Position numbers and translations under genes: made by a program
Assembly (NCBI RefSeq): GCF_031157275.1
Contig: NZ_JAVIFW010000017.1
Span: forward strand, 62,001-126,000
Source: Streptomyces sp. LHD-70
GTDB lineage: Bacteria; Actinomycetota; Actinomycetes; Streptomycetales; Streptomycetaceae
Direction: 5' to 3'
Length of the DNA: 64,000 nt
Notes under the pieces: model-generated
Databases searched by the model: none
Seen by the model: only the letters and a program-made list of their open reading frames with translations
Told to the model about the DNA's origin: nothing
Part shown: one piece after another, positions 4,211-63,849 of the stretch
Layout of the letters: every line of letters begins with the position of its first letter
Numbering within the stretch: the first letter of the stretch is position 1

Positions 4211-5893
4211 GTGCTGGTGAGTCAACTGGTCCTGCGGGACGTGTCGTTCGGCTACCCCGAGCGGCCGGTCCTGGAGCGGGTCTCGCTGTCCGTGCGGCCC
4301 GGTGAGCACGTCGGCGTGATCGGGGAGAACGGCTCCGGCAAGTCGACGCTGCTGCGGCTCCTCGCGGGGCGTGCCGTACCCGCCGAGGGCGAGCTGCGGG
4401 TGGTGTCGGACGGCGGGACGGGGTATCTCGCGCAGACCCTCGAACTGCCGCCGCACGCCACAGTGCAGGACGCCGTGGAGGACGCGCTCGCCGAGCTGCG
4501 GGACCTGGAGCGGCGCATCCGGCTCGCCGAGGAGTCCCTCGGCTCGGCCGGTCCCGCCGAACTCTCCGCGTACGCCGACCTGGTCGCCGCCTTCGAGGCC
4601 CGCGACGGCTACCGGGCCGACGCCCGCCTGGACGCGGCCCTGCACGGCCTCGGCGTACCGCATCTCGGGCGTGGGCGGACGCTCGGCTCGCTGTCCGGCG
4701 GGGAGGCCGCGCGGCTCGCGCTCGCCTGCGTGCTCGCGGCCGCGCCCGAACTGCTGCTCCTCGACGAGCCGACGAACCACCTGGACGCGGCCGCCCTCGA
4801 CTGGCTGGAGGAACGGCTGCGCACCCACCGCGGCACGGTCGTCGCCGTCACCCACGACCGGGTCTTCCTCGACCGGGTCGCGGACGCGATCGTCGAGGTC
4901 GACGGCGACCGGCACAGCGTCGATCGGTACGGCGGCGGCTGGTACGGCTATCTCGCGCAGCGCACGGCGGCCCGGCAGCGCTGGGAGCAGCGCCACCGCG
5001 AGTGGCGGGACGAGGTGGAGCGCCAGGAGAAGATCGCCGAGGGCGCCGCCGACCGGCTCGGCTCGGGCTGGCGGATGCGGGACAGCAGCACGTTCGCGAA
5101 GTTCTCCAAGCACCAGCGGTCGGTGGAGGGCCAGGTGTCCGGGGTGGTGCGCAACGCCCGGGAGCGGCTGCGGCGGCTGCGGGCCGAGCCGGTGCCGCGG
5201 CCACCGGACCCGCTGCGGTTCACGGCCGAGCCGGAGGGCGGGGACCATCCGTTCCTGCTGCCCGTGGAGCTGACGGACGTGGCGGTGGGTGAACGCCTGG
5301 CCGTCGAGCGCCTCCGCCTCGCGCCGGGCACGCGGCTCCTGGTCACGGGGCCCAACGGCGCGGGCAAGTCCACGCTGCTCGGCGTCCTCGCGGGTGCGGT
5401 CACCCCGGACCGCGGCGAGGTCCAACGCCCGGTCCGCGTCGGCCACTTGCCGCAGGAGGTCCCGTACGACGACGGCTCGGGCGCCTCGGGTCCTACTCTG
5501 CTGGCCGCCTTCGCCGCGGGCCTGCCCGGCCTGCCCGAGGACCACGCGGACCGGCTTCTCGCCCTCGGCCTCTTCCGCGAGGCAGACCTCGTGGTTCCCG
5601 TACGCGGACTCTCGGTCGGCCAGCGGCGCCGCCTGGCCCTGGCCCGCCTGGTCACCCGCCCCGCCGACCTGCTCCTCCTCGACGAACCCACCAACCACCT
5701 CTCCCCCGCCCTGGCGGAAGACCTGGACCAGGCCCTCGCGACCTACCCCGGCACGCTGGTGGTCGTCTCCCACGACCGCCGCCTGCGGGCCGCGTTCACG
5801 GGACACCGGATCGAGGTGGTCAGGGGGCGGGTTCCCCCCTTCCCGCCCCTTCCCGAACGTCCTGCGGACAGCCCTGGGGGCGTGCCCCGATAG
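4211..5893 (+). CDS. ABC-F family ATPase (two ABC domains)
   Basis: Soluble twin-ATPase of the ABC-F class, which acts on ribosomes (translation factor or antibiotic-resistance protection) rather than in transport. Seen: first Walker A GENGSGKST (38-46), signature LSGGEAARL, Walker B LLLLDEPTNHLD; a charged linker around 240-330; second Walker A GPNGAGKST (about 380), signature LSVGQRRRLAL and second LLLLDEPTNHL. No membrane segments. A GTG at 4217 has the better-spaced AGAGGGG site and may be the true start. The last ~22 codons fall inside an interspersed repeat that also supplies the TAG stop, so the C-terminal tail looks acquired or replaced. Whether it confers resistance or is housekeeping is unknown. 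Confidence 0.93.
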   Translation: MLVSQLVLRDVSFGYPERPVLERVSLSVRPGEHVGVIGENGSGKSTLLRLLAGRAVPAEGELRVVSDGGTGYLAQTLELPPHATVQDAVEDALAELRDLERRIRLAEESLGSAGPAELSAYADLVAAFEARDGYRADARLDAALHGLGVPHLGRGRTLGSLSGGEAARLALACVLAAAPELLLLDEPTNHLDAAALDWLEERLRTHRGTVVAVTHDRVFLDRVADAIVEVDGDRHSVDRYGGGWYGYLAQRTAARQRWEQRHREWRDEVERQEKIAEGAADRLGSGWRMRDSSTFAKFSKHQRSVEGQVSGVVRNARERLRRLRAEPVPRPPDPLRFTAEPEGGDHPFLLPVELTDVAVGERLAVERLRLAPGTRLLVTGPNGAGKSTLLGVLAGAVTPDRGEVQRPVRVGHLPQEVPYDDGSGASGPTLLAAFAAGLPGLPEDHADRLLALGLFREADLVVPVRGLSVGQRRRLALARLVTRPADLLLLDEPTNHLSPALAEDLDQALATYPGTLVVVSHDRRLRAAFTGHRIEVVRGRVPPFPPLPERPADSPGGVPR

Positions 5894-6035
5894 GGGCGCG
5901 GGGCTGTGACATCTGCGGCTCCGCCGCGGGGCGCGACCAGCCACGACGGCGCGGCAGCCGAAGAACCAACCTGCGGGGGTACGGCGGCAGCCGAAGAACA
6001 TCCTGCGGGGGTACGGGGGCGCAGCCCCCGAACCC
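5822..6035. repeat. Interspersed Streptomyces repeat, family A, copy 1 (with inner duplication)
   Basis: Begins inside the ABC-F C-terminus (CGCCCCTTCCCGAA and GTCCTGCGGACAGC blocks), continues through TAGGGGCGCGGGG and GCGGCTCCGCCGCGGGGCGCG to CAGCCACGACGG, and then repeats CAGCCGAAGAAC...CTGCGGGGGTACGG twice. The same blocks recur at 13262-13445 (inverted in part) and 34925-35070. A GGGGGC-GCA-GCCCCC hairpin at about 6015-6029 lies next to the start of the following gene. It can serve as a terminator for the ABC-F gene. Confidence 0.8.
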
Positions 6036-6057
6036 CCCGGCTACCATCGCTGACGCC

Positions 6058-6894
6058 ATGCAGATGAATGCCACCTACACCAGTCTCGTCGCGATAGGCG
6101 ACTCCTTCACCGAGGGCATGTCCGACCGCCTCCCCGACGGCTCCTACCGCGGCTGGGCCGATCTGCTCGCCGCGCGGATGGCGGCCGTACAGCCCGGATT
6201 CCGGTACGCCAACCTCGCCGTGCGCGGCAAGCTCATCGGGCAGATCGCCGCCGATCAGGCCGACGCCGCGGCCGCCCTGCGACCCGACGTCGTGACACTG
6301 GTCGGCGGGCTCAACGACACCCTGCGCCCCAAGTGCGACATGGGCCGCGTACGGGCGCTGCTCGACGAGGCCGTGGAGAAGCTGGCGCCCGCCTGCAAGC
6401 AGCTCGTGCTGATGCGCAGCCCCGGCCGCCAGGGCCCGGTGCTCGAACGGTTCCGGCCGCGGATGGAGGAGCTGTTCGCGCACATCGACGGCCTCGCCGA
6501 GCGGCACGGCGCCCTCGTCGTCGACCTGTACGGCGCGTCCGTGCTCGGCGACCAGCGGCTGTGGGACGTGGACCGGCTGCACCTCACCGCCGAGGGGCAC
6601 CGCCGGGTCGCGGAGGCGGTGTGGCAGACCCTCGGGTACGCGGCCGAGGAGGACTGGCGCGCCCCGCTGCCCGCCGCCGTCGACCCGCGCTGGGCGCAGC
6701 GCCGCGTCGCCGACGCCCGGTTCGCGCGGGAGCACCTGGGGCCCTGGATCGGCCGACGCCTGACCGGCCGGTCCTCGGGCGACGGCCGCAACGGGGCCCA
6801 GTTCGACCCGGCCGAGGGCAAGGCCTTCTGGATCGGCCCCGCCGAGGACGGCACGCCGGTTCCGGTGACGGGCTGGCGCCGCGTGGAGGCCTGA
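6058..6894 (+). CDS. SGNH/GDSL hydrolase
   Basis: Serine esterase/lipase of the SGNH fold. Seen: block I GDSFTEG (around residues 14-20, nucleophile Ser16), conserved Asn in GGLNDT (block III) and the Asp-x-x-His pair in DRLHLTAEGHRR near residue 175 (block V). Length 278 aa is typical, with a ~90-residue C-terminal part after the catalytic His. No signal peptide is visible, so it is probably cytoplasmic. A TACCAT box ends 10 nt before the ATG, so the mRNA may be almost leaderless. A second ATG lies two codons in. The TGA stop sits inside the first unit of a 17-bp tandem repeat. The substrate is unknown. Confidence 0.9.
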   Translation: MQMNATYTSLVAIGDSFTEGMSDRLPDGSYRGWADLLAARMAAVQPGFRYANLAVRGKLIGQIAADQADAAAALRPDVVTLVGGLNDTLRPKCDMGRVRALLDEAVEKLAPACKQLVLMRSPGRQGPVLERFRPRMEELFAHIDGLAERHGALVVDLYGASVLGDQRLWDVDRLHLTAEGHRRVAEAVWQTLGYAAEEDWRAPLPAAVDPRWAQRRVADARFAREHLGPWIGRRLTGRSSGDGRNGAQFDPAEGKAFWIGPAEDGTPVPVTGWRRVEA

Positions 6895-58272: not shown

Positions 58273-58977
58273 TCAGGAGACGAAGTCGGCCAGGTCGGGG
58301 ATGCGCCAGTCGATGGGCGTGTGGCCCTGGGCGGCGACCGCCTTGTCGATCTGTGTGAAGGGCTGGGAGCCGAAGAACTTCTTCGCGGAGAGCGGCGAGG
58401 GGTGGGCGCCCTTCACCACGATGTGCCGCTCGGCGTCGATGAGCGGGAGCTTCTTCTGGGCGTAGTTCCCCCACAGCACGAAGACCGCCGGGTCGGGGCG
58501 GGAGGCGACCGCGCGGATCACGGCGTCCGTGAACTTCTCCCAGCCCTTGCCCTTGTGCGAGTTGGCCTCGCCCGCGCGGACCGTGAGAACGGCGTTCAGG
58601 AGCAGCACGCCCTGCCGGGCCCAGGGCATCAGATAGCCGTTGTCCGGGACGGGGGTGCCGAGCTCGGCCTGCATCTCCTTGTAGATGTTCCGCAGGGAGG
58701 GCGGGGTCTTCACGCCGGGGCGGACCGAGAAGCACAGGCCGTGGCCCTGGCCCTCGCCGTGGTACGGGTCCTGGCCGAGGACGAGCACCTTCACATCCTC
58801 GTACGGCGTGGCCTCCAGGGCGGCGAAGACCTGCTCGCGGGGCGGGTAGACGGGGCCCTTCGCGCGCTCCTCCTCGACGAACTCGGTGAGTTCCTTGAAG
58901 TAGGGCTTCTCCAGCTCCTCGCCGAGAACCTCGCGCCAGGACTCGGGGAGCAGGGCTGCGGTGGTCGGGTCCGTCAC
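58273..58977 (-). CDS. ung: Uracil-DNA glycosylase, family 1
   Basis: Removes uracil from DNA for base-excision repair; 234 aa, normal. Water-activating motif GQDPYHG at residues 68-74 (Asp70), FSVRPGVKTPPSLRNIYKE, LLLNAVLTVRAGEANSHKGKGW, FVLWGNYAQ and the DNA-intercalation loop HPSPLS. GTG 58977 is chosen for GGAGG 8 nt upstream and family start TDPTTAALLPESW; the open frame extends to 59013. Probably monocistronic. Confidence 0.96.
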   Translation of the reverse strand: MTDPTTAALLPESWREVLGEELEKPYFKELTEFVEEERAKGPVYPPREQVFAALEATPYEDVKVLVLGQDPYHGEGQGHGLCFSVRPGVKTPPSLRNIYKEMQAELGTPVPDNGYLMPWARQGVLLLNAVLTVRAGEANSHKGKGWEKFTDAVIRAVASRPDPAVFVLWGNYAQKKLPLIDAERHIVVKGAHPSPLSAKKFFGSQPFTQIDKAVAAQGHTPIDWRIPDLADFVS

Positions 58978-59040
58978 GTGAACAACCTCCAGTGTGCGGT
59001 CACTTCTCACCATCGAACCTACCGGCGACCACTGACAACG

Positions 59041-59074
59041 CCGAAGGGCGGCCGGAGTTCCGGCCGCCCTTCGG
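59041..59074 (-). terminator. 15-bp perfect-stem terminator after the peptide-binding protein
   Basis: CCGAAGGGCGGCCGG - AGTT - CCGGCCGCCCTTCGG (59041-59055 / 59060-59074). Lies 28 nt beyond the stop of the minus-strand gene that ends at 59102. No U-tract, as usual in Streptomyces. Confidence 0.9.
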
Positions 59075-59101
59075 GGTCGTGCAGTGCACTCGGACCGCCG
59101 T

Positions 59102-60685
59102 CTACCAGCTGGTCTTCCGGCTCAGCTCCCACATCGTCATGATCGTCGAGGGGTCGAGGGCGCGCTCACCGCCGGCGATCTCCTCGGAGGCGGCGACGTA
59201 CTGCTTGCCCTGCCACAGCGGCAGCAGCCGGGCGTCCTCGACGAGGATCTCCTGCGCCTTCTCGAACTCCTCGGCCACGGCGCCGCGGTCCGTCTCACGG
59301 CGCGACTGGGGCAGCAGCTGGTCGGTGATGCGCGGGCTGGCGTACGGGATGCCCAGGTTGTTGCGCTCGCCGACGAACGGCGCGATGAAGTTCTCCGGGT
59401 CCGGGAAGTCGGGGAACCAGCCGCGGCCGAAGACGGGGTACTCGCCGCTGCGGAAGCCCTTCTCGAACTCCTTCCAGGGGCGGCCCTTGACCGTCACGTC
59501 GAAGAGGCCGGAGGCCTCCAGCTGGCGCTTGATCTCCTCGAACTCCGTCTTGGTGACCGAGCCGTAGCGGTCCGTGGCGTACCAGAGGGTCAGCGGGACG
59601 GGGTCCGTGATGCCCGCTTCGCTGAGGATCTTCTTCGCCTTGGAGGGGCTGGGCTTTCCGTACGTGTCGAAGAAGCCCGTGGTGTGGCCGGCGACGCCGG
59701 TCGGGACCATCGAGTAGAGCGGTTCGACGGTGTCCTTGTAGATGTTGTGCACGATCGCGCCGCGGTCGATGACCTGAGCGACGGCCTCGCGCACAGCGGG
59801 GTTCTTCGCCCAGCGGTCCTTGGGGTTGAACACCAGGAAGCGGGTCTCCGTGCCGGCGCCCTCGACGAGCTGGAGCTTGTTCTCGCCGGCGGCGGTGCCC
59901 TGGAGGTCGACGATGTCCTGCGAGGTCAGACCGCGGAACGTGACGTCGATGTCGTGCTTCTTCAGGGCCTTCACCATGGTGCCGGAGTCCTGGAAGTACC
60001 GGATGGTGACGGCGTTGTTCTTGTGCTCGGCGAAGCCCTTGTAGTTCGGGTTCCTGGTGAGTTCGGCGGTCTTGCCGACCTCGTACGAATCGAGTTGGTA
60101 CGGGCCGGAACCGACGATGCTGCTCTCCTTGCGGAGCGAGTTCGCCGGGTACTCCTGCGGGTCCACGATCGACATGGCCGGGGTGGCGAGGACGAACGGG
60201 AAGGTCGCGTCGGCCTTCTTCAGGTGGAAGGTGACATCGCGGTCGCCGTCGGTCGTGACGCGTTCGAGACTGCCGAGCAGACCCGCGGGGCCGCCCTCGA
60301 CGCCGATCTTGCCGATCCGGTCGATGGAGTGCTTCACGGCCTTGGCGTCGAGCGGGTCGCCGTCGGAGAACTTCAGGCCCTCGCGCAGCTTGCAGTGGTA
60401 CGCGGTGTTCGACTCGTCGGTGAACTCGCAGGCCTCGGCGGCGTCCGGCTCGGGCGTCGCGGCGCCGGTCGGGTAGCTGACCAGCGTCTGGTAGACGTTC
60501 CGGTACAGCTCCCAGGATCCGTCCCAGGCCGCGGCGGGGTCGAGGGTGCTGGGCGCACTGGTGGTGCCGACGACGATGGGCTTTTCCTCGTCGGTACTTT
60601 CGGAAGTGAAGACACCGCATCCCGCGAGCAGGGATATGGACGCAAGAGTCGCAGCGGCCTGCAGACTTCGGGTCCGGTTGAACAC
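59102..60685 (-). CDS. Peptide/solute-binding lipoprotein (SBP_bac_5, OppA-like)
   Basis: Extracytoplasmic substrate-binding protein of a peptide/nickel-type ABC importer, 527 aa. Signal with lipobox LLAGC (SISLLAGCGVF); then domain start IVVGTTSAPSTLDPAAAWDG and family motifs RNVYQTLVSYPTG, LREGLKFSDGDPLDAKAVKHSIDRI. GTG 60685 is chosen since GAGGAG sits 7 nt upstream; the GTG six bases earlier has the site almost touching. No permease or ATPase genes are adjacent, so it is an orphan binding protein that must share transport components encoded elsewhere. Preceded by its own promoter, followed by a strong terminator. Confidence 0.93.
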   Translation of the reverse strand: MFNRTRSLQAAATLASISLLAGCGVFTSESTDEEKPIVVGTTSAPSTLDPAAAWDGSWELYRNVYQTLVSYPTGAATPEPDAAEACEFTDESNTAYHCKLREGLKFSDGDPLDAKAVKHSIDRIGKIGVEGGPAGLLGSLERVTTDGDRDVTFHLKKADATFPFVLATPAMSIVDPQEYPANSLRKESSIVGSGPYQLDSYEVGKTAELTRNPNYKGFAEHKNNAVTIRYFQDSGTMVKALKKHDIDVTFRGLTSQDIVDLQGTAAGENKLQLVEGAGTETRFLVFNPKDRWAKNPAVREAVAQVIDRGAIVHNIYKDTVEPLYSMVPTGVAGHTTGFFDTYGKPSPSKAKKILSEAGITDPVPLTLWYATDRYGSVTKTEFEEIKRQLEASGLFDVTVKGRPWKEFEKGFRSGEYPVFGRGWFPDFPDPENFIAPFVGERNNLGIPYASPRITDQLLPQSRRETDRGAVAEEFEKAQEILVEDARLLPLWQGKQYVAASEEIAGGERALDPSTIMTMWELSRKTSW

Positions 60686-60724
60686 GCGCACGCTCCTCGA
60701 TCAACCACGCCAGGGGGTTGGCGC

Positions 60725-60774
60725 ACCTTACCGCAGTGCCCTGCCGGGCCAACGTTCAGGCCGGGCAGGGCACT
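60725..60774 (-). promoter_or_regulatory. Large hairpin overlapping the peptide-binding-protein promoter
   Basis: AGTGCCCTGCC (60735-60745) pairs with GGGCAGGGCACT (60763-60774), extended by GGCC pairs near the loop. On the minus strand the promoter TTGGCC (60747-60752) - 16 bp - TAAGGT (60725-60730) lies across it. The hairpin is at the right place to terminate the SDR operon coming from 60836. Confidence 0.6.
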
Positions 60775-60835
60775 TGATGTACCGACTCGTCTCATTCAGC
60801 CGGTACGCGGGCTACGCACCGGCTTGACCGTTTGG

Positions 60836-61591
60836 TCAGCCGACGCCCGCATTGAGGAAAATGCCGCCGTCCACGACGAGCGTCTGCCCGGTGACCCAGT
60901 CCGACTGGTCCGAGGTGAGGAACGCGGCGGCCCCGCCGATGTCCGCAGGCACGCCGAGGCGGCCGAGCGGGTAGGCGGAGGTGACCTCCTCCTCGCGGCC
61001 CTCGTACAGCGCCTTGGCGAACTTGGTCTTCACCACGGCGGGCGCGATGGCGTTGACCCGCACCTTGGGCGCGAACTCGTGCGCCAGCTGCAGCGTCAGG
61101 TTGACCATCGCGGCCTTGCTCATGCCGTACGCGCCGACGAACGGGGAGGCCGAGACGCCGGCGATGGAGGCGATGTTGACGATCGCGCCGCCGTTCTCGG
61201 ACTGCCAGGCCTTCCAGGTCCGCTGGGCGAAGCCGAGCGCCGAGATCACGTTGGTCTCGAAGACCTTGCGCGCGACGTTCAGGTCCATGTCGGCCATCGG
61301 CCCGAACACCGGGTTCGTACCGGCGTTGTTGACCAGGAAGTCGACCCGGCCGAAGGCCTCCATGGCGCGCTCCACGGCGACGGCCTGGTGGGCCTCGTCG
61401 TGCGCCTTGCCGGCGACGCCGATGACCCGGTCGGCGCCGAGCTTCTCGACGGCCTCCTTGAGCGCGTCCTCGTTGCGTCCCGTGATGCAGACCCGGTCGC
61501 CGCGGGCGACGAGCGCCTCGGCGATGCCGTATCCGATGCCGCGGCTCGCGCCCGTGACGAGCGCGGCCCGCCCGCTGTCCTGCACGGTCAT
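60836..61591 (-). CDS. SDR oxidoreductase (FabG-like)
   Basis: 251-aa classical short-chain dehydrogenase: TGASRGIGYGIAEAL (about 13-27), LVNNAGTNPVFG, catalytic Ser in NIASIAGVSAS and Tyr-x-x-x-Lys in YGMSKAAMV, and a C-terminal GQTLVVDGGIFLNAG. Resembles 3-oxoacyl-ACP/CoA reductases; substrate uncertain. ATG 61591. Follows fabG on the same strand with a 48-bp gap, so one operon, ended by the hairpin at 60735-60774. Confidence 0.92.
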   Translation of the reverse strand: MTVQDSGRAALVTGASRGIGYGIAEALVARGDRVCITGRNEDALKEAVEKLGADRVIGVAGKAHDEAHQAVAVERAMEAFGRVDFLVNNAGTNPVFGPMADMDLNVARKVFETNVISALGFAQRTWKAWQSENGGAIVNIASIAGVSASPFVGAYGMSKAAMVNLTLQLAHEFAPKVRVNAIAPAVVKTKFAKALYEGREEEVTSAYPLGRLGVPADIGGAAAFLTSDQSDWVTGQTLVVDGGIFLNAGVG

Positions 61592-61639
61592 GTTCTGCTT
61601 CCTTTACGTCCCGTATGGGTCTGTCGGGGTGCGGCCGGG

Positions 61640-62401
61640 TCAGTTGAGCGGGCCGCCGGCGACGTACATGACCTGGCCGGAGACGAAGCCCGCGGCGTCG
61701 CCGGTGAAGAAGGCGATGGCGTTGGCGATGTCGTCGGGGCGGCCGACGCGCTGGACCGGGATCTGGGTGGCGGCCGCGGCCTGGAAGTCCTCGAAGCCCA
61801 TGCCGACGCGCTCGGCGGTGGTCTTGGTCATCTCGGTGACGATGAAGCCGGGGGCGACGGAGTTGGCGGTGATGCCGAACTTGCCGAGCTCCTTGGCGAG
61901 GGTCTTGGTGAAGCCCTGCAGACCGGCCTTGGCCGCCGAGTAGTTGACCTGGCCGCGGTTGCCGAGCGCGGAAGAGCTGGACAGGTTGACGACCCGGCCG
62001 AAGCCCGCGTCCACCATGTGCTTCTGGCAGGCCTTCGACATCAGGAAGGCGCCCCGCAGGTGCACGTTCATGACCGTGTCCCAGTCGGAGGCGCTCATCT
62101 TGAAGAGCAGGTTGTCGCGGAGCACGCCCGCGTTGTTGACGAGGATCGTGGGAGCGCCGAGCTCGTCCGCGATCCGGGCCACGGCGGCCTCGACCTGTGC
62201 CTCGTCGGAGACGTCGCAGCCGACGGCGATCGCCTTGCCGCCGGCGGCCTGGATCTGCTCGACGGTGTCCTTGCAGGCGGCCTCGTCGAGGTCGATGACG
62301 GCGACGGCGCGGCCTTCGGCGGCCAGTCGGATCGCGGTGGCGGCGCCGATGCCGCGCGCGGCTCCGGTGACTACGGCGACGCGCTGCTCGGTGGTGGACA
62401 T
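61640..62401 (-). CDS. fabG: 3-oxoacyl-ACP reductase FabG
   Basis: NADPH-dependent beta-ketoacyl reductase of fatty-acid (or polyhydroxyalkanoate/CoA-linked) metabolism, 253 aa. TGAARGIGAATAIRL cofactor loop, VNNAGVLRDNLLFKM (typical FabG), Ser in NLSSSSALGNRGQVNY with Tyr-x-x-x-Lys YSAAK, NSVAPGFIVTEMT. ATG 62401. First gene of the two-SDR operon. A TAAGCGGTCGCTCA palindrome-like site lies ~70 bp upstream of the start. Confidence 0.92.
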   Translation of the reverse strand: MSTTEQRVAVVTGAARGIGAATAIRLAAEGRAVAVIDLDEAACKDTVEQIQAAGGKAIAVGCDVSDEAQVEAAVARIADELGAPTILVNNAGVLRDNLLFKMSASDWDTVMNVHLRGAFLMSKACQKHMVDAGFGRVVNLSSSSALGNRGQVNYSAAKAGLQGFTKTLAKELGKFGITANSVAPGFIVTEMTKTTAERVGMGFEDFQAAAATQIPVQRVGRPDDIANAIAFFTGDAAGFVSGQVMYVAGGPLN

Positions 62402-62579: not shown

Positions 62580-62963
62580 TCAGCGCACGAGGAGGTCCAG
62601 GAGCCGCTCCACCTCGGCCTCCGGGTCGGCCGTCAGACCGGAGTGCACGGGGCCCGGCTGGACCACCGTGGAGCGGGGCGCGATCAGCCAGCGGAAGCGC
62701 CGGCCGATGTCGTCCCGCGCCGCCTGGCCCGCGTCCTCGCCGCCCCGGCAGACTCCTTCGACGGCGCGCAGCGCGGCCCGTACGCCCGCGACGTCCGCCG
62801 CCGGGTCGAGCGCGGTCAGCTTGCGCTCGTCGAGGTGGGTGCGGGCGGCCACGAAGGACTTGGCGCGGCAGTAGACCACCACGCCCGCGTTGAACTGCTC
62901 GCCGCGCTCCACGCGAGGGACCACCCGCAGCAGCGCGTACTCGAACACATCGCGCTCGCTCAT
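62580..62963 (-). CDS. DUF3037 family protein
   Basis: 127-aa protein of unknown role. N-terminal RDVFEYALLRVVPRVERGEQFNAGVVVYCRAK is the family hallmark, then VAARTHLDERKLTALDP and a helical C-terminus with FRWLIAPRSTVVQPGPVHSGL. ATG 62963 overlaps the stop of the HipA-like kinase as ATGA, so the pair is translationally coupled. I recall this gene following a HipA-like gene in other bacteria, which suggests the two proteins act together. Confidence 0.85.
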   Translation of the reverse strand: MSERDVFEYALLRVVPRVERGEQFNAGVVVYCRAKSFVAARTHLDERKLTALDPAADVAGVRAALRAVEGVCRGGEDAGQAARDDIGRRFRWLIAPRSTVVQPGPVHSGLTADPEAEVERLLDLLVR

Positions 62964-63811
62964 TCGCCCGCGCCCTTCTTGTCCTTGGTGGGGTGCGGCC
63001 ACGGAGTGAGGTGGTCGGTGAGCCACCCCGGCGCGTTGGACTGCTTGCGCTCGACGCGCGGGCCGAGGGTGATCCGCTCGGCGAGGCCCTTTACTCGCGC
63101 GTGCAGCACGTCGACGTACGCGCGGCGCAGTTCGTCCGGGCTGTCGAAGCCGGGCTCGTCGACCAGCCACTCATCGGGGACGTCGGCGGCGACCTCGGTG
63201 AGGAGTTCCTCCGTCACGCGCGGCGCGAGTTCGGCGGCGGCCGCGGCGACGTCCGGGCCGAAGGGCGCGAGCGCGTGGTCGGAGGCGTCGTACGGCTTCG
63301 CGGCGGCGACCTGGGCGGTGCGCCAGTTGTGGTGCCAGATCATGCTCGCGCCATGGTCGATCAGCCACAGGTCGCCGTGCCACACCAGCATGTTCGGGTT
63401 CCGCCAGGACCGGTCGACGTTGTTGATCAGCGCGTCGAACCAGACCACCCGCCCCGCCTCGGCGGCGCTCACCTCGTACGCGAGCGGGTCGAAGCCGAGG
63501 GAGCCCGGCAGGTAGTCCATGCCGAAGTTGAGGCCGCCGCTGGCCTTGAGCAGCTCCTGCACCTCCTGGTCCGGCTCGGCCAGGCCGATCACGGGGTCGA
63601 GCTGGATCTGCACCAGGTCGGGCACCCGCAGCCCCAGCCGACGCGCCAACTGCCCGCAGACGACCTCCGCGACGAGCGTCTTGCGGCCCTGGCCGGCCCC
63701 GGTGAACTTCATGACGTATACGCCGAGGTCGTCAGCCTCGACGAGTCCGGGCAGAGATCCACCCTCACGTAGTGGGGCGACATATCGGGTGGCAGTGACT
63801 TCTGCAAGCAT
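62960..63811 (-). CDS. HipA-family (HipA_2-like) kinase
   Basis: 283-aa protein kinase-like fold related to the HipA toxin kinase. Seen: VMKFTGAGQGRKTLVAEVV (ATP-binding Lys), the catalytic loop NNVDRSWRNPNMLVW (Asp and Asn) and the metal motif IDHGASMIWHH (Asp). No N-subdomain of classical HipA and no HipB antitoxin upstream; instead it overlaps a DUF3037 gene. A promoter TTGGAT-18-TATAAC with the start codon 8 nt after the -10 implies a leaderless mRNA. Target unknown; classical HipA phosphorylates glutamyl-tRNA synthetase. Confidence 0.87.
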   Translation of the reverse strand: MLAEVTATRYVAPLREGGSLPGLVEADDLGVYVMKFTGAGQGRKTLVAEVVCGQLARRLGLRVPDLVQIQLDPVIGLAEPDQEVQELLKASGGLNFGMDYLPGSLGFDPLAYEVSAAEAGRVVWFDALINNVDRSWRNPNMLVWHGDLWLIDHGASMIWHHNWRTAQVAAAKPYDASDHALAPFGPDVAAAAAELAPRVTEELLTEVAADVPDEWLVDEPGFDSPDELRRAYVDVLHARVKGLAERITLGPRVERKQSNAPGWLTDHLTPWPHPTKDKKGAGE

Positions 63812-63819
63812 TATCCCAG

Positions 63820-63849
63820 GTTATAGGGCCGCACAGCTTGCCGATCCAA
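63820..63849 (-). promoter_or_regulatory. Promoter of the HipA-like operon (leaderless)
   Basis: Minus strand: -35 TTGGAT (63844-63849), 18-bp spacer, -10 TATAAC (63820-63825), then 8 nt to the ATG at 63811. No ribosome site. Confidence 0.65.

Follow-up and report, generated by a model that had tools for sequence, protein, structure and literature searches.

A short-form HipA_2 kinase and DUF3037 gene pair in Streptomyces sp. LHD-70, practically core in the genus

The window, a stretch of 64,000 nucleotides from contig NZ_JAVIFW010000017.1 of Streptomyces sp. LHD-70, carries near one end a two-gene module on the minus strand. An earlier note on this DNA had put a HipA_2-type kinase and an overlapping DUF3037 gene at 62580 to 63811; place and families were confirmed, as was the ATGA overlap on reading the sequence. 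The features are as follows.

62960 to 63811, minus strand: HipA_2-type kinase gene, first of the pair (ATG start, 283 amino acids, PF20613)
62580 to 62963, minus strand: DUF3037 gene, single-domain short form, second of the pair (ATG start, 127 amino acids, PF11236)
62960 to 62963, minus strand: ATGA overlap of the kinase stop and the DUF3037 start (stop-to-start distance -4), read in the sequence
63818 to 63823, minus strand: putative -10 element TAACCT, ending 6 nt before the kinase ATG, a leaderless geometry
58273 to 62401, minus strand: conserved downstream neighbourhood by Pfam, outside the module (two short-chain dehydrogenases, SDR; a solute-binding protein; a uracil-DNA glycosylase, UDG)

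The immediate neighbours of the pair by Pfam are the two SDR genes downstream and a TetR gene upstream, just beyond the window. No adjacent gene for a helix-turn-helix HipB antitoxin was found beside the pair, so that the absence of HipB noted before holds. The TetR gene was considered as a partner and rejected, since it was present in none of 23 other Streptomyces loci. The ATGA overlap is not universal either, and in other loci the stop-to-start distance goes from about -25 to +68 nt.

The kinase matched PF20613 (HipA_2) with 61.1 bits (cut-off 27) and the PADLOC profile PDC-M66A with 74.1 bits. PF20613 was its sole Pfam match, with no HipA_C domain at E <= 0.1. Residues K35, E49, D133, N138 and D152, whose catalytic roles we assume from the HipA family, are identical in all 43 rows of short-form kinases including that of the window, and to judge by the sequence the kinase residues described before as intact appear to be so. 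The AlphaFold2 model of the protein (pLDDT 90.3) had as its best fold match in the PDB the Helicobacter pylori kinase CtkA (Z 16.0, rmsd 3.0, 208 aligned residues, 14% identity). Lower scores went to type II phosphatidylinositol 4-kinases (Z up to 13.8, with rmsd 3.9 over 217 residues), to Fam20 chains (Z about 11-12) and to chains of HipA (Z about 10-11). The modelled fold puts the window protein with the compact HipA/CtkA-like kinases. CtkA, the closest solved fold and also a compact kinase, is absent among the PDB sequence matches of the window kinase at E <= 1, and we know of no DUF3037 partner for it. In the PDB sequence search the window kinase had marginal matches only, to a designed filament and to beta-lactamases with E values of 0.13 and above, which were taken as chance. 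Canonical HipBA shares a related kinase fold according to the model, but the window kinase has PF20613 without HipA_C or HipB, and a control search found HipA_C in just 3 of 101 genomes of the genus.

The second protein matched PF11236 with 150.4 bits (cut-off 22.6) over residues 9-126, with no second Pfam domain at E <= 0.1. Its match to PADLOC PDC-M66B (34.8 bits) covers positions 4-128 of a profile of 281 positions, and the C-terminal half that follows DUF3037 in other members (DUF1829 or a DNA-binding part) is missing from the window protein. Six residues (R20, E22, N25, R89, S98 and H107) were invariant in 38 of 38 aligned DUF3037 proteins. The structural model (pLDDT 94.2) found no fold match in the PDB at E <= 0.001 (best Z 3.4), and the PDB sequence search with this protein gave no matches.

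Of 50 Streptomyces loci, 39 have upstream of the kinase gene a TANNNT motif whose end is exactly 6 nt from the start codon, and 40 have one that ends 5-8 nt from it (background, 8 of 5500 positions); a Shine-Dalgarno-like 5-mer was found upstream of the start in one of the 50. Of the earlier proposal of a leaderless promoter with translation persisting under stress, the geometry alone is borne out, by this motif position and by the scarcity of Shine-Dalgarno-like sequences, and a predicted leaderless start of the kinase gene is well supported. A generic sigma-70 scan gave no match at this promoter. The pattern TARCCTGGGRHRATG occurred once in each of five of the six genomes searched and not in the sixth; in the LHD-70 genome its single match is at the kinase gene. 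A second element, close to TGGATTGYAAGG, is found at -37 in 13 of the 50 loci (among them L002, L005, L006, L037, L050 and L103), where the -10 element is often weakened. TGGATTGYAAGG itself was present once in each of the genomes G055, G165 and G031, always at the kinase start, was absent from G166, and occurred once in the LHD-70 genome, elsewhere than at the kinase start; a reversed control pattern had one occurrence across these five genomes. A wide regulon for the exact pattern TGGATTGYAAGG was therefore rejected, its copies being single in the genomes that have it and nearly all at the kinase start.

Of 199 genomes of the genus, 193 have DUF3037, always as a single match, and 198 have HipA_2. 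One genome, G008, has neither family, and the pair is therefore dispensable. The closest relative among the 37 loci aligned is that of Streptomyces boluensis (L211), with 92% identity in the kinase and 96% in the DUF3037 protein. In 22 of 23 other Streptomyces loci, which were picked by hand and mostly from long contigs, the order kinase-DUF3037-SDR-SDR-UDG is kept (the exception is L100), and 17 of these 22 also have the solute-binding gene. In 12 loci of other genera of the class the pair is likewise intact, but none has this downstream order. Median dN/dS was 0.22 for the kinase and 0.18 for DUF3037, compared with 0.20 and 0.20 for the two SDR genes and 0.16 for UDG at the same loci; in a second sample, of 39 loci, the values for the pair were 0.26 and 0.20. 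Both are under purifying selection, with a constraint similar to that of the neighbouring genes. Five Streptomyces genomes with HipA_2 and no DUF3037 match were considered as candidates for a solitary core kinase and none is a clear case. In G010 a run of N follows a core-type kinase, in G050 the contig ends there, and in G079 and G152 the HipA_2 match is an orphan-type paralogue. The kinase of the fifth, G017 (L128), has a core-type start and promoter, an orphan-type C-terminus and an Rdx gene just downstream, and is either a recombinant or an assembly chimera. Another locus, L105 of G170, carries about 2.2 kb upstream of an intact pair a 37-codon stub of the kinase start, apparently a partial duplication.

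The association of both genes extends far beyond the genus. In a sample of 296 genomes of the class Actinomycetes, 28 of them Streptomyces, DUF3037 was found in 135, HipA_2 in 133 and both in 131. The kinase match lies upstream on the same strand within 1 kb in 130 of the 131, one of which (G443) has a long-form pair, and in the sole exception the two families are on separate contigs. DUF3037 without HipA_2 was found in four genomes of the class, two of them with weak matches, and searching two of the four, G282 and G480, with the window kinase found none. HipA_2 without DUF3037 was found in two, one by a partial and the other by a weak match. We also scanned named genomes with a kinase alignment, which favours places closest to its first sequence, and in all of the best 80 of 592 confirmed places a DUF3037 gene of about 121-150 amino acids lay downstream. 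These 80 come from Actinomycetes, Spirosoma, metagenome-assembled genomes (MAGs) of Ardenticatenales and Rubrobacteraceae, and a MAG named Lautropia. The co-occurrence analysis that the earlier note had suggested as a check has thus revealed a very strong conservation of the gene pair.

Two forms of the pair could be distinguished. The short form, with a DUF3037 protein of about 121-157 amino acids, is that of the window, of other loci of the class, of Bacteroidales and of Spirosoma. The long form, with a protein of 276-297 amino acids, was found in plasmids of Pantoea and Pseudorhodobacter and in three Actinomycete genomes, so the view that all Actinomycete loci are short-form had to be dropped. 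In these three (G242, G297 and G443; loci L117, L118 and L119) DUF3037 proteins of 290, 288 and 297 amino acids follow divergent kinase-like frames. G242 and G297 carry a short-form pair as well, and therefore both forms are distinct genes. The kinases of the two plasmids are 27% and 34% identical to that of the window. In a tree of 54 kinases the sampled long forms were split from the short forms by a long and supported branch (96/94, length 5.5). The long forms in this tree are few, five sequences of which two are identical, and their branches are very long. The regular expression used caught 3 of 37 long-form kinases from viral contigs, and the other 34 lie outside the tree together with those of G242, G297 and G443. 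With few long-form kinases sampled, the sequences place the window pair in a different branch from the long-form pairs.

A second, non-adjacent HipA_2 gene without DUF3037 beside it was present in 14 of the 28 Streptomyces of the class sample. Orphan kinases of this kind in eight Streptomyces loci (L108-L115) are 54-57% identical to the window kinase, and in the tree the Streptomyces orphan paralogue adjoins the Streptomyces core kinase (86/80). The orphans examined group with the short-form kinases, and therefore such a kinase does not always need DUF3037 beside it. In seven of the eight loci an Rdx-family gene (PF10262) directly follows the orphan kinase, and copies of the -37 element are also found before the orphan kinases of L110 and L114.

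We looked for the pair in mobile elements. The DUF3037 protein had no match among 50,697 phage records and seven among 72,556 plasmid records, one of the seven being a record of 11.85 Mb. A scan of viral contigs with the kinase alignment gave 17 stretches that matched by pattern, none of them a relative of the window kinase, whereas 37 viral-contig loci were found with a long-form DUF3037 protein of the Pantoea plasmid as the query. As one query was an alignment and the other a single protein, and as their host groups differ too, a real contrast between a short form missing from viral contigs and a long form present in them is suggestive only. Viral collections probably sample Streptomyces hosts poorly. 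Among plasmids, one of Leptolyngbya (L121) has a short DUF3037 gene (142 amino acids) without a full kinase in front and near IS elements.

The pairing of such a kinase with DUF3037 is already known, as PADLOC PDC-M66 and as HipAD/DS-6. In Retron-Sda1 an operon of a HipA-like kinase and DUF3037 protects against Bas51 in the absence of the retron; deletion of the kinase abolishes defence and deletion of DUF3037 is toxic (PMC12548924). Its authors point to PDC-M66 and to the resemblance of the C-terminus of the DUF3037 protein to a retron DNA-binding protein (PMC12548924). DS-6, found with DefensePredictor and renamed HipAD, pairs a kinase with a protein that carries both DUF3037 and DUF1829; mutation of a kinase residue abolishes defence and a complex of kinase and DUF3037 was predicted (PMC13092281). 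In view of these works, the earlier label of a module of unknown purpose no longer holds for the family. Like PDC-M66/HipAD, the window has a HipA_2 kinase with conserved residues beside a same-strand downstream DUF3037 gene, and no HipB. Unlike it, the window protein has 127 amino acids and one domain, while DS-6B combines DUF3037 with DUF1829 and long-form proteins have 276-297. The long form is found on two plasmids and in the viral-contig loci; the window form is core and chromosomal, and the accessory, often mobile distribution typical of PDC-M66/HipAD does not describe it. Lacking both the C-terminal half and this distribution, the pair has therefore not been filed as a HipAD defence system. 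Retron-Sda1 has a similar two-gene pair that differs in sitting by a retron and in the DNA-binding-like C-terminal region of its DUF3037. All the tested family members that we found have a C-terminally extended DUF3037 protein. Literature searches under the HipA and DUF3037 names gave, among the papers listed, no experiments on the branch of the window; a full-text search for DUF3037 gave three papers, none with Streptomyces in the title, and none was found under SCO1347-1349, which we guessed to be the S. coelicolor locus numbers. The main text of a HipA phylogeny paper has no mention of PF20613, DUF or Streptomyces (PMC8262856), and a phosphoproteome paper on S. rimosus names HipA in the reference list only (PMC9600765).

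Short-form pairs are also found away from the core locus in elfamycin-type gene clusters (L120, positions 5195-6366; L227, 6176-6958; L228, 6381-7555). One such cluster, on a Streptomyces globosus plasmid, has the pair inside it next to ccrA, with a predicted facT transporter close by. The cluster-borne kinases of L120, L135, L227 and L228 were placed among the short-form kinases in the tree. In L228 (genome G595), with the same arrangement as the plasmid, the genes for the kinase, DUF3037, a crotonyl-CoA reductase and a dioxygenase-like protein measure 783, 396, 1371 and 846 nt. The kirromycin genes kirHIV, kirHV, kirN and kirHVI have 783, 396, 1368 and 846 nt, and KirHV was reported to have its closest relative in Streptomyces sp. 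CB00455 (PMC5818483); the genome of this strain carries such a short-form pair (L135). From gene lengths and order and from the CB00455 relative, KirHIV is likely a HipA_2 kinase and KirHV a DUF3037 protein, relatives of the window pair like those of the S. globosus plasmid. Against this match, kirN and kirHVI are said to overlap, which is not so in L228, kirN differs by 3 nt, and the start that gives 846 nt in L228 is one of two possible. In the two papers found with these names, kirHIV and kirHV are labelled hypothetical or uncharacterised, or magnesium ATPase in one table. Both were deleted singly in S. collinus, and kirromycin production was unaffected (PMC5818483). This strain thus seems to tolerate losing a short DUF3037 next to its kinase, and the core chromosomal DUF3037 may cover for the lost kirHV.

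By homology with Retron-Sda1 and DS-6 the pair most likely works like a kinase and its inhibitor. With moderate confidence we interpret it as a core short-form kinase-inhibitor pair, toxin-antitoxin-like, with a probably resident regulatory role rather than one in mobile phage defence. The first gene would give a HipA_2 protein kinase. Translation of the second would follow directly through the overlap and yield a single-domain DUF3037 protein, which would bind the kinase and hold it in check. Transcription from the putative leaderless promoter is probably steady, and DUF3037 would not act on it because the window protein is without the C-terminal half, the presumed DNA-binding part of the defence form. 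On loss or displacement of the inhibitor, by stress or perhaps infection, the kinase would phosphorylate a component of the cell, most likely one of translation, and growth would slow. Several findings speak against this reading. A strict toxin-inhibitor pair predicts harm from the deletion of kirHV, which was harmless to kirromycin production; orphan HipA_2 genes are kept in half of the sampled Streptomyces (14 of 28) and the pair is dispensable, as in G008; and the class sample has four genomes with DUF3037 and no HipA_2, and two with the reverse.

The earlier proposal of a toxin-antitoxin or defence module with DUF3037 in place of HipB stands in part. It is supported in the distant relatives Retron-Sda1 and HipAD/DS-6, and an ordinary mobile defence module is disfavoured here by the presence in 193 of 199 genomes, the synteny in 22 of 23 loci, the neighbour-like constraint and the lack of matches in phage and viral records. 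A true anti-phage abortive-infection system like HipAD/DS-6 and Retron-Sda1, which became fixed in Streptomyces and other Actinomycetes, is unlikely, if still a serious contender. It would account for the same families in the same gene order and for the PDC-M66 matches of both proteins, and two relatives have been shown to act in defence, one of them with DUF3037 as the detoxifying partner. The core and syntenic position of the pair argues against it, as does the DUF3037 protein without its C-terminal half; its absence from the phage records (0 of 50,697) and from viral contigs, compared with 37 long-form loci, points the same way but is suggestive only.

We consider it rather improbable that the kinase is a housekeeping signalling enzyme, with DUF3037 as activator, substrate adaptor or second enzyme and no toxin-antitoxin logic. 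Core status and neighbour-like constraint would fit such a role, the polar residues of DUF3037 invariant in 38 of 38 proteins are perhaps beyond the need of a pure inhibitor, and the kirHV deletion had no effect on kirromycin production. The toxicity of losing DUF3037 alone in Retron-Sda1 fits an inhibitor and weighs against it. A broader and doubtful idea sees in the short-form pair an ancient signalling unit, resident in Actinomycetes and some other phyla, with the mobile HipAD having arisen from it or at its side. The short-form kinase would then act on elongation-factor or translation machinery; if that were true, it would explain why EF-Tu-binding elfamycin clusters have their own copies, possibly for self-protection. 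A decayed or neutral toxin-antitoxin remnant without present function, for which one could cite G008 without both families and G282 and G480 with DUF3037 and no HipA_2, is highly improbable given the dN/dS of about 0.2 in both genes, the kinase residues kept in 43 of 43 rows and the retained promoter motif, the constraint having disfavoured it already. The long-form pairs of three Actinomycetes left our weighing of all these readings unchanged.

The locus gives a gene pair described until now as a phage-defence toxin-antitoxin system a short relative, practically core in Streptomyces, which we read with moderate confidence as a resident kinase-inhibitor pair. This short form gives a probable name to the "hypothetical" genes kirHIV and kirHV, of which deletion mutants have already been made, and it offers a direct way to study the relation between resident cell regulation and a kinase toxin with its inhibitor.
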